Assembly (NCBI RefSeq): GCF_018143015.1
Contig: NC_054740.1
Span: forward strand, 38,132,180-38,196,179
Reading direction: 5' to 3'
DNA length: 64,000 bases
Origin: Lytechinus variegatus
Taxonomy: Eukaryota > Echinodermata > Echinoidea > Temnopleuroida > Toxopneustidae
A program made the position numbers and the translations under genes. Positions 26,701 to 32,700 of this stretch are shown here, one piece after another. Numbering within the stretch: position 1 is the first letter of the stretch; each line of letters opens with the position of its first letter. Under the pieces are notes generated by a model. The model made no database searches and was not told the origin of the DNA. It saw only the letters and a list, made by a program, of their open reading frames with translations.

Positions 26701-29700
26701 ATTATTCACAAAAACACAATTCATGTCATGATACAATACTATGTTCAATGACAATGAATGACAGTTGACCTTGATCATGCGACCTAAGACATGTCGGTGA
26801 AACTTGATTACCCCTATATCCACATTTTATCAACTAAATCTATAAACTTTGAAAGTTATGACAGCAATGTAATAATAACCTTCAAAATGGCCAAAGTTCA
26901 TTGACCTTAAATGACTTTTGAATTTGGCCATGTGACCTGAAACTCGCATGAGATGTTCAGTGATACTTGTTTACTCTTTAATATGTTCAAGTTTTATGAA
27001 CTAGATCCTAACACTTTCGGAGATATGATGGTTATTCAACATCTCCCACCAACATGGCCAAAGTTCATTGACCTTTGATCTTGGTCATGTTACCTAAAAC
27101 CTGCACAGGATGTTCAGTAATACTTGATTACTCTTATGTCCTAGTTTTATGAACTGGACCAATACACTTATGGGCCCGTATTCTGAAGTCAGGTTTAACT
27201 TAGACCATGGTCTAACTCTGTGCTAAAATTATGGGAAGCCAAAAGTGTCAAAAATTTTATTAAGTTGTATGTTTTTTATGTTTACTGTGCTCTTTTCTGA
27301 TTCATCGATGGTGAAGACAATCATCTATTTATACTCCCTAGAGAATTGTGAATGATTTGAAAGGCAAATGAGCTGAAATATGATATCTCTACTGTTAGTG
27401 ATTTATGTAACAACTGGCTCTCCATACTTAAACCACAACTTTAAACCTGAGTTTAAGTTAAACCTGACTTCAGAATACGGGCCATAGAGTTTTCGTGATA
27501 ATTCAACAAATACCCCCAACATTGCCAAAGTTCATTGATCTAAAATGACCTTTGACCTTCGTCATGTGACCTTAAACTCGCACAGGATTGTCAGTGATTC
27601 TTGATTACTCTTTTTTCCAAGTTTTATGAATCAGATCTAGAAACATTCAAAGTTATGATGGAAATTCAACAAATACCCCCAACTTGGCCTAAGTTCATTG
27701 ACCTTAAATGACCTTTGACCTTGGTCATGTGACCTGAAACTCACACAAGATGTTCAGTGATACTTGATTACTCTTTATGTCCAAGTTTTATGAATCAGAT
27801 CCATAACATTTCGAAGTTACGATGGTAATTCAACAAATATCCCCAAACTTGGTCAAAGTTCATTGGCCCAAAATGACCTTTGACCTATAGTCATGTGACT
27901 TGAAACTAGAACGGGATGTTCATTAATACTTGATTAACTTTATGTCCAATTTTCATGAACTAGGTCCATATACTTTCTAAGTTATGCTGTCATTTCAAAA
28001 ACTTAACCTTCGGTTAAGATTTGATGTTGATGCCGCCGCCGTCGGAAAAGCGGCGCTTATAGTCTCACTCCGCTATGCAGGTGAGACAAAAAACAAAGGG
28101 CAAATGCTAGATGATCTACTTACCACCTTCTTCATCTGGTTTTAGAATACCAGCCATCATCCTGATGAAAGTGGTCTTCCCTGTTCCATTCTCTCCCAAC
28201 ATCACAATAATCTCTGAATCAGTGAATTCTCCAGGGTTAACATCCATGTGGAATGACTCTGAAATGCAAGGAAAGGACAAAAATTATACCAGGACAACGG
28301 ACAATATTGAATTGCAGTTTTGCTTATTAACAATTTTGTCCCCCTTTCATACATACTTAATGTTTTGCTCATTCCTGGGTACTGACATCGTCGCATCCTC
28401 TTGATCTCTCTCTCCCCTCCTTCCCTCTCATTCGCCTCTCCCTCACTCTTTGTCCCACTTTCCTACATACTTAAAGTTTTGCTCATTCCTGGGTACTGAT
28501 ATCCTCGCACCCTCTTGATCTCTCTCTCCCCTCCTTCTCTCATTCGCCTCTACTTCACTCTTTGCCCCCTTTCCTACATACTTAAATGCTTTGCTCATTC
28601 CTGGGTACTGATATCATCACATCCTCTTGATCTCTCTCTCCTCTCCTTCCCCTCTTATTCGCCTCTACCTCACTCTTTGCCCCCTTTCCTACATACTTAA
28701 TGTTTTGCTCATTCCTGGGTACTGATATCGACACATCCTCTTGATCTCTCTCTCCCCTCCTTCCCTCTCATATCGCCTCTACCTCACTCTTCGTCCCCTT
28801 TCCTACATACTTAAAGTTTTGCTCATTCCTGGGTACTGATATCGTCGCATCCTCTTGATCTCTCTCTCCCCTCCTTCTCTCATTCGCCTCTACCTCACTC
28901 TTTGTCCCACTTTCCTACATACTTAAAGTTTTGCTCATTCCTGGGTACTGATATCCTCGCACCCTCTTGATCTCTCTCTCCCCTCCTTCTCTCATTCGCC
29001 TCTCCCTCACTCTTTATCCCCCTTTCCTACATACTTAATGTTTTGCTCATTCCTGGGTACTGATATCGTCGCATCCTCTTGATCTCCCTCTCCCCTCCTT
29101 CCCTCTCATTCGCCCCTACCTCACTTTTTTTCCCCCTTTCCTACATACTTAATGTTTTGCTCATTCCTGGGTACTGATATCATCGCACCCTCTTGATCTC
29201 TCTCTCCCCTCCTTCTCTCATTCGCCTCTCCCTCACTCTTTATCCCCCTTTCCTACATACTTAATGTTTTGCTCATTCCTGGGTACTGATATCGTCGCAT
29301 CCTCTTGATCTCCCTCTCCCCTCCTTCCCTCTCATTTGCCCCTACCTCACTCTTTATCCCCCTTTCCTACATACTTAATGTTTTGCTCATTCCTGGGTAC
29401 TGATATCGACACATCCTCTTGATCTCTCTCTCCCCTCCTTCCCTCTCATATCGCCTCTACCTCACTCTTCGTCCCCTTTCCTACATACTTAAAGTTTTGC
29501 TCATTCCTGGGTACTGATATCGTCGCATCCTCTTGATCTCTCTCTCCCCTCCTTCTCTCATTCGCCTCTCCCTCACTCTTTGTCCCACTTTCCTACATAC
29601 TTAAAGTTTTGCTCATTCCTGGGTACTGATATCATCACATCCTCTTGATCTCTCTCTCCCCTCCTTCTCCTCTTATTCACCTCTACCTCACTCTTTGTCC

Positions 29701-32700
29701 CTCTTTCCTACATACTTAATGTTTTGCTCATTCCTGGGTACTGACATCGTCGCATCCTCTTGATCTCTCTCTCCCCTCCTTCCCTCTCATTCGCCTCTAC
29801 CTCACTCTTTGTCCCCTTTCCTACACACTTAATGTTTTGCTCATTCCTGGGTACCGATATCGTCACATCCTCTTGATCTCTCTCTCCCCTCCTTCTCCTC
29901 TCATTCGCCTCTACCTCCATCTTTGTCCACCTTTCCCACATACTTAATGTTTTGCTCATTCCTGGGTACTGATATCGTCGCATCCTCTTGATCTCTTCCT
30001 CTTCTGCATTCTCAGAGACCTTGAAGACCAGTGACGTCTCTCGGAATCTCAGGTTCTCCGTCGGAACAAAGCCATCCAAGAAAATGTTGATTCCTAAATA
30101 CAGAGAAGTCCAATAATGAGACAGGGTGAAAAAATGATTTTTTAATTATAATTTCGACCTCGAGTCATCAAAAGATAATATTTTCCACATTATATTGACA
30201 ATGCTGGAGTAACTGAAATTGTCTTGACTGCAGTAAGAATAAATAAATCTTTTATTTATATTTTTTTATAAAAAACTAACACATACCGAGATATGCTATA
30301 TTAAATCTATAGATGTCTTCTTAACAGTATGGTGTCTTTCAGTTATGTGATACATCACCCTCACAATATTAATCAAGAAATTGAGTCACTTGATTCAGAC
30401 AACTAAACTGATTCATTCAAGCGTAACTTAGTGAAAAAAAAGTCATGAGTATTCACATATTTCTATCAATACTCTTGGTCAAACCCATTACAATCCTGAT
30501 AAAGAACATACAAGTGCCAATCCTAACCAAGTCTTTCCCCATATCAAATAGCCCAAGACGAGAAGAACTGGAACATAGTTGTCTTAGACTGTGTTCAATG
30601 TTGATTTCCATATTTAAACAGCAACATAATTCATGATTCAAAATGCAATTATAAAGCACAGAACACAAGCACGACCAGCAGTACACGAGTCATCATTGGG
30701 TGTGTTTATGCTTCCATTGCGAGGACAGAATCAGCGTTTTCAAATGTCGATTCCAAATGCCGATCATAAACGTGGTTCTGGGAGTGCTGTTTATGCTTAA
30801 CTTTTCAGAGGCGAAATCATGATCTCCAGCTGGCTTCGCAGGAAAGCGAGGTCAAATTGGGCGCGCCTTTTTTTCGAAAGTTTTTTTCTGAGTGTTGTTA
30901 TTACGTGGAGATAACATGGAGCAATGCAACTGTATTTGCCCGCGGATAATTCATCTCACCGCGGAAGCATGTACCAAATATTTAAACACGTTTAAGATCG
31001 TGGTTCTGTTCATACTTCCCCAGAAAGCCTGATTCTGGTCTGACGACCTTTACAAACGCACCTTTTTGTCAGTTTACGATCGGTGTTTTGAAACAGCGTT
31101 TAAATGAAAATAAGCATGGACCCAACCGTGTTTTGGGCTTATCTCGTTTGGAAACGCTGATTCTGGCCTGAAAAGTGGAAGCATAAACACGGCCATTGAA
31201 AATCTGAAGCTGATTATACAACAATCATCGATCCCCAACCATCAGTGAAGCTTCCAATGTGAGTACATATAACTCTCTGCACGCTGAATTATTTTTAGGG
31301 GGATTAATAATAATTGTTTCCATTTTATTTTCTTTGAAATCAAGATTTCCATTTTGAACCATTGATGTTGTCCAAGAACTTTTGTCATTTATTCTCTAAT
31401 ATAAAGTTAGTGTGGAAAAGTAATTATTACGATTGTTGAATTTAACCGTACAACTGTGCAAGATTGCAATGCAACATCAGCATGCAAAGGGTTAAAGACA
31501 GCTCCAAACTCATTCATGTTCAGCGTTGCATTTCTTTTCATTTGTGACGCTGAGAGGGGTAAAATCTATGCTGATCGCGTTTCAAAATGTACCTTTGCTG
31601 GTTTTCAAATTCTCCTCCAAATCGAGATCTGACAGTTGTTTACTTTTACGACCAGGAATGGGGGACACTGAACACAATATTTGTATCTCATATCAGGGAT
31701 TTGAATCATGATTCATGTTGCTGTCTAAATTTGAAAATCAACATTAGATGAAACCTCATGAAATACTTGATTGCTCTTGATAATCACTAACATGATACAA
31801 CGATTTCGCATTGTCATTTGGAGAAAAAAAACGAAGACAAAATATTTACCTTCCCTAACACTGAATGGCAATGTGACAACACCATACGCACTGGGAACAC
31901 CATAGAGACAACAGATGAAATCAGAGAGATAATCTAACACTGATAAATCGTGCTCCACTACAATGATGTACCTATAAATAAAGATATGGAGAAAATACCA
32001 GAATAAGTCAAAACCAGACCCATCTTGGAAGACTGGTCAAAAGGTAACATAGATCCAAAAGAAAAGTTGTGAGCTTGAGTTTGTAGTATTTACATACTTT
32101 GCTTATATGCCAAAAGAAAGGTGACTTATGGTTCACTGTAAAACATGACTAAACAACAAGACAATGCAAATTAAAAATTGGCAATGTCATTGTTAGATTT
32201 TGACAAGTGGTAGGGACTACTTGTTTGTCTTGTATTTACTTATCAGGAATATATGGTTTTCTCCAAAGCATATGAGAGGGGGAATCACAAAGTAAAAAAA
32301 AAATCCTCAGAAAATTCATTTCAGCCATTTTGTATATTGGCTGGTGGTTCTATGTCTACATTGTCAGGCCAATGTGAATATCCAACTGGAATATTCAATT
32401 TTGTTCAAACTTTCCCCAATCAGATTCTTTCATCTTACTTTTTCATTTTAAAACAATTTTATTTCCATTGGATTCCACTTTTAAGCTCCAAAATGGAAAC
32501 TACATTAAATTTAAAACACTTCAAAGTCTTGTATATTGTAATATCAAGCGGATAGTGTAACCCTACTGAGAGTTTCAATCATCCCTATTTATACAGTGCG
32601 TATCAAAAACCAAAGGGACAGATTTGAAAAGTCTATAAAATTTTTGTTTCAAATTATGATGTCTATATTTTGACGTTAATAGGTGCTCTGAAGTCCTGTC

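Follow-up and report, generated by a model that had tools for sequence, protein, structure and literature searches.

How can an intron of an essential gene come to consist almost entirely of repeated copies of the exon end and 5' splice site that precede it, and which of the resulting donors is the spliceosome likely to use? Both questions are raised by intron 10 of ABCE1 in the window, i.e. the whole 64,000-nucleotide stretch of Lytechinus variegatus DNA analyzed here. The locus offers an extreme natural test of 5' splice site choice, with one pre-mRNA of an essential gene presenting 15 donors that are predicted to be equally strong and lie in nearly equal contexts.

The ABCE1 gene and the anatomy of intron 10

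ABCE1, an essential ribosome-recycling gene, was located on the minus strand with a human ABCE1 sequence as a probe, and GT-AG junctions chosen by hand resolve it into 15 coding exons extending from 39745 to 17786 on that strand. The spliced exons form an open frame of 602 codons, whose product is identical to the annotated L. variegatus protein "ATP-binding cassette sub-family E member 1-like", the best of the 120 matches listed in a protein search, and aligns with the solved ABCE1 structures along its entire length. This 602-residue splice model bears out the earlier note in naming the gene as ABCE1 and in numbering the exon of interest as the tenth in the coding-exon count. Coding exon 10 (30093-29944, 150 bp) is followed by intron 10 (29943-28259, 1,685 bp), with the donor TAA/GTATGT and the acceptor CTTGCATTTCAG, and then by coding exon 11 (28124..28258), which in the splice model starts at 28258; all three lie on the minus strand. 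The end of exon 10 encodes recognizably the same protein region across nine aligned ABCE1 proteins (two from Lytechinus, two from Diadema, two from sea stars, and one each from a crinoid, a sea cucumber and an acorn worm), with K357 and L359 of SKTL being invariant.

TRF detects a tandem array with a period of 114 and 14.7 copies at 28335-29996, which, read on the minus strand, begins ~53 bp within exon 10, at 29996, with the final ~53 bp of the exon (29944-29996) constituting unit 1. Split at GATCAAGAGG, which occurs 15 times in the window, always on the minus strand and at the 15 unit starts, the array resolves into 15 units spaced at 112-115 bp; TTAAGTATGT occurs 14 times in the window, again exclusively on the minus strand. 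Every unit contains ~50 bases of the exon 10 end, followed by TAA, the GT donor and a purine-rich intronic stretch, giving a make-up of ~53 bp of exonic and ~60 bp of intronic sequence. The donor reads GTATGT in 14 of the 15 units and GTGTGT in unit 2. Unit 15 stops at 28335, ~40 bp short, and the array is therefore better counted as ~14.6 copies than as 15. It accounts for 1609 of the 1685 bases of intron 10 (95.5%), the remainder being a unique 3' end of 76 bp (28259..28334, minus strand), with a pyrimidine tract and the acceptor, which on sequence and composition lies outside the array. The TRF result, the unit list and the unit alignment agree with the earlier description of a 112-115 bp unit that crosses the exon 10 5' splice site, repeats 15 times with near-identical GTATGT donors and makes up about 95% of the intron, and the alignment confirms that the units do extend into coding sequence. 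With an exon end and GT donor spanned by each of the 15 units, and with many head-to-tail copies of which the extra ones are intronic, the array has these two structural features of a CBS-type boundary VNTR.

Other repeats and reading frames in the window

Several further elements were noted in ABCE1 and its surroundings. Intron 11 contains a stretch oriented antisense to the gene (22781-26217) with a plus-strand reverse transcriptase ORF (23105-25159; RVT_1, E = 3e-11) and, after it, a GIY-YIG-like ORF (25163-25774) that narrowly misses the Pfam cut-off; the stretch is flanked by direct repeats (22781-23101 and 25897-26217) whose 107-aa translations read the same, and it looks like a Penelope-like element. 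A ~160-bp repeat (period 153-163), forming short arrays in intron 11 (26739-28001) and intron 8 (33738-34656) that are 70-84% alike, represents an apparent dispersed intronic tandem repeat. Upstream of ABCE1, the minus strand carries a 469-aa reverse transcriptase frame (41200-42606; RVT_1, E = 2.9e-31). Elsewhere in the window are a GC-rich 68-bp unit in two copies that are ~98% alike (44674-44810), a 128-bp tandem repeat of 3.2 copies with 98% matches (1213-1617), and a plus-strand exon with a match to family 2 glycosyltransferases (62061-62555; E = 4e-9), which resembles a polypeptide GalNAc-transferase.

Origin and growth of the array

Over the exon-derived columns, unit 1 shows no differences from the consensus of units 2-15, and in the intronic part it differs from that consensus in six columns. 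The equality of the true exon with the consensus of the extra copies, taken together with the recognizable conservation of its end in the nine aligned proteins, identifies the exon as the source; in conjunction with the nonsynonymous changes carried by the copies (see below), it also argues that the junction of exon 10 and intron 10 gave rise to the array, as the earlier note had maintained. The array is well accounted for as a tandemly expanded exon-intron junction. A dispersed satellite inserted at the junction was considered and rejected: in a search of the own genome (870 Mb in 33 contigs, with common words skipped and one candidate scored) the array plus its flanks matched itself alone, no further match of at least 60 bp is found elsewhere in the window, and the exon-derived part codes for ABCE1 residues with surroundings conserved in nine deuterostome proteins.

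The codon split by the junction encodes the residue that follows KTL. This residue is K in both Lytechinus species, G in six of the nine proteins aligned and D in another. Provided that the intron position is common to these species, exon 10 probably once ended in G and now ends in A in Lytechinus; given that A is present in every one of the 15 units, this weakening of the donor would have preceded the array. The suggestion that GAGAGA in the exon offered a microhomology for the first duplication fares poorly, because the exact match between exon and repeat junction to the left of GATC is only 3 nt (AGA), and such an origin is unproven. When the unit's purine stretch (~42 bp) was compared with the exon just upstream, 67 of 3000 and 521 of 3000 randomized sequences scored as high.

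We favor a scenario in which a segment with the exon 10 end, the 5' splice site and the adjoining intron underwent tandem duplication inside an existing intron, in an ancestor of this Lytechinus genome, and would later have expanded to 15 units via unequal exchange or slippage, multi-unit steps included. In the unit alignment, units 5 and 11 are identical, as are units 7 and 9, and exact repeats of 212 bp and 154 bp recur at distances of 678 bp and 226 bp, respectively; multi-unit exchange leaves identical unit pairs and long exact repeats of this kind, and they accordingly point to its action. The presence of multi-unit identical blocks also makes it likely, as gauged from one assembly, that the copy number varies among individuals. 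The ending of the array in a fraction of a unit is not predicted by simple duplication and counts against this account; either the end of unit 15 might have been lost, or the first duplication might have been joined with added purine-rich sequence. Taken as a whole, with the use of donor 1 and the near-neutrality of the array discussed below, we regard duplication followed by expansion as very probable.

An alternative is that intron 10 itself arose when an exonic segment was duplicated in tandem. Introns can be gained by tandem genomic duplication, an accepted and established mechanism, and the available parts of the relevant studies describe exon-derived duplications that yield intronic sequence (PMC3443670, PMC2891723), with which an intron made up to 95.5% of the array would be in keeping. 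However, in those cases the duplication supplies both splice sites, whereas the acceptor of ABCE1 intron 10 is found 76 nt past the array, at 28259, and for this reason the locus falls outside that class. The last 76 intron bases with their pyrimidine tract are likewise not part of the array, the unit holds the donor together with ~60 bp that lack clear similarity to the exon, and the donor context is TAA/GT, not AG/GT. Creation of the intron in this manner is consequently highly improbable. Since the array includes neither the acceptor nor the last 76 bases, intron 10 is more likely to have been lengthened than created; its original length would have been ~98 bp or somewhat more if the sequence between donor 15 and the acceptor represents the intron as it was before the array. 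Long near-identical arrays are also often mis-sized in assemblies, and the array might on this ground be taken as wholly or partly an artefact, for example in its copy number, but the units are 88-100% mutually identical with distinct variants and lengths of 112-115 bp, and the longest exact repeat is just 212 bp. Given these distinct variants and the limited exact repeat length, the existence of the array is safe and its exact unit number is not; an artefact is very unlikely indeed.

Coding status of the copies and choice of donor

The exon-derived parts of the copies show 17 nonsynonymous and 7 synonymous changes, as against 115:29 for the possible single changes, in a tally that counts changes common to several copies repeatedly, and the copies introduce in-frame stops. 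Both features suggest that the copies are not kept as coding sequence, and the extra copies look non-coding, with relaxed coding constraint. Among units 1-14 the mean pairwise difference is 5.2% in the exon-derived part and 7.3% in the intron-derived part; the share of variable columns shows no difference between the former and the latter (8/51 and 15/66, p = 0.48). Columns within a stretch around the donor, selected post hoc, vary less often than the remainder (3/39 vs 20/78, Fisher p = 0.026), which could hint at some constraint on the donors or reflect chance. No acceptor-like site was found in the array by the measure of pyrimidine share: purines make up 77.5% of its sense strand, no pyrimidine run exceeds 4, and the best pyrimidine share before a YAG is 0.50, compared with 0.62-0.94 at 13 real ABCE1 acceptors. 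With neither an acceptor-like site nor coding constraint, the extra copies were rejected as likely alternative coding exons. A structured RNA was also rejected, there being no Rfam match at gathering score in the window and the first five units folding worse than shuffles.

Only the exon-proximal donor 1 (GT at 29942..29943, minus strand, as are all the donors) is consistent with the annotated ABCE1 protein. Use of donor 2 (29827..29828), the sole divergent one with GTGTGT, predicts truncation, and use of any of donors 4-15 (28355..29600, with the G of GT at 29600, 29488, 29374, 29260, 29148, 29034, 28922, 28810, 28696, 28581, 28470 and 28356) predicts a premature stop. The exception among the 14 extra donors, 13 of which predict a truncated protein, is donor 3 (29714..29715), whose use would add 228 bp in frame and without a stop, placing 76 residues between the two ATPase halves. 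By a coarse measure, the predicted U1 duplex energy is -5.0 kcal/mol at all 15 donors, with donor 1 being the second weakest of the 14 donors of ABCE1 (range -4.5 to -12.1 kcal/mol); as the 15 energies are equal, donor 1 is not intrinsically stronger and strength alone cannot pick it. Exon definition, by contrast, works from the upstream acceptor. Donor 1 closes an exon of 150 bp, whereas the exons ending at donors 2-15 would be 265-1,737 bp long. Since only the former combines a normal exon length with a real acceptor upstream, we infer that the spliceosome uses donor 1, which the lack of an acceptor before the copies, combined with exon definition, would favor. Splicing at most later donors would bring a premature stop into the transcript, which would probably lead to its degradation. 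Because definition of the exon proceeds from upstream, the array would be tolerated, and it may represent a near-neutral, probably copy-variable minisatellite. An intron that lengthens through reiteration of its own exon junction comes to contain exon-like sequence. Should animals differ in donor use or in copy number, this one locus would allow both exon definition and nonsense-mediated decay to be measured.

A functional alternative, in line with what is suggested for CBS and with the alternative donors shown for IFI6, is that the repeated equal donors splice part of the transcripts late, thereby tuning the ABCE1 level through degraded transcripts or through an isoform with the 76-aa insert. 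Equal U1 pairing at the 15 donors, the low rank of donor 1 in the gene, the frame that stays open with donor 3 and the post hoc signal of lower variability around the donor (p = 0.026) are all compatible with such a device, and in the available text on CBS more repeats accompany lower enzyme activity (PMC5188458). The donors may moreover be accessible, as every one of 100 shuffled sequences folds more strongly than the RNA of the first five units. Nevertheless, the copies lack coding constraint, and a search with the 76-aa insert, though weak for rare forms, returned no protein at E <= 10 among 7 candidates; the products of the 13 truncating donors would escape a protein search. We consider a device of this type unlikely. 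Distinctly unlikely is its elaboration into a splice-donor rheostat, in which 15 equal weak donors share one acceptor and the repeat number would set the productive share of ABCE1 mRNA, with late donors leading to decay and donor 3 to the 76-residue isoform; if true, length variation among urchins would tune ribosome recycling.

Relationship to known boundary repeats

The duplicated and expanded junction that we favor belongs to a kind of repeat with known parallels. The statement in the earlier note that there is no standard description of such an intron does not hold, as the human CBS VNTR and human IFI6 are precedents. Turri 1995 is cited for the human IFI6 (6-16) minisatellite. This work is mentioned in the available parts of PMC2572611, PMC3618361 and PMC2915984. 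In IFI6, as described in the accessible portion of a further paper, downstream repeat units serve as splice donors and give three mRNAs (PMC4526556). Each unit thus provides a donor beside the authentic one, as in ABCE1, but the downstream units are used in IFI6 mRNA, whereas those of ABCE1 are donors predicted from sequence. Human segmental duplications, in which tandem repeats at exon-intron boundaries were surveyed with 27 intron modifications in the available account (PMC2812944), similarly contain repeats across such boundaries that change gene structure; these are recent paralogs with transcript-supported new introns, whereas the ABCE1 intron looks constitutive. PMC3045353, which describes a fish myostatin intron with a 150-bp repeat at its 5' end, has, in the part available, no bearing on the question, and the same applies to PMC4329672. 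A literature search found no paper on the intron 10 array of ABCE1 in Lytechinus.

The CBS VNTR is described, in the available parts of the sources, as c.1444_1467+7(16_21), by notation 24 exonic plus 7 intronic bases in 16-21 repeats (PMC2630376), and as a 31-bp VNTR at the "boundary of exon 13 to intron 13" with lower activity at higher repeat number (PMC5188458); it is also found in a table of PMC1395315. As in ABCE1, the unit spans the end of a coding exon and the 5' splice site, with 15-20 extra copies reaching into the intron of a metabolic or housekeeping gene. The CBS unit is, however, 31 bp long as against 112-115 bp in ABCE1 (~53 exonic and ~60 intronic), and both the variation in its copy number and the association of that number with activity are known, whereas the ABCE1 array is known from the sequence of one assembly. 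The ABCE1 array stands out for its long unit, for occupying nearly the whole intron and for its essential single-protein host gene, the comparison with CBS being one of unit and copies only. On the whole, ABCE1 is a striking case, larger in scale than CBS, of a kind of repeat with established examples in human CBS and IFI6.
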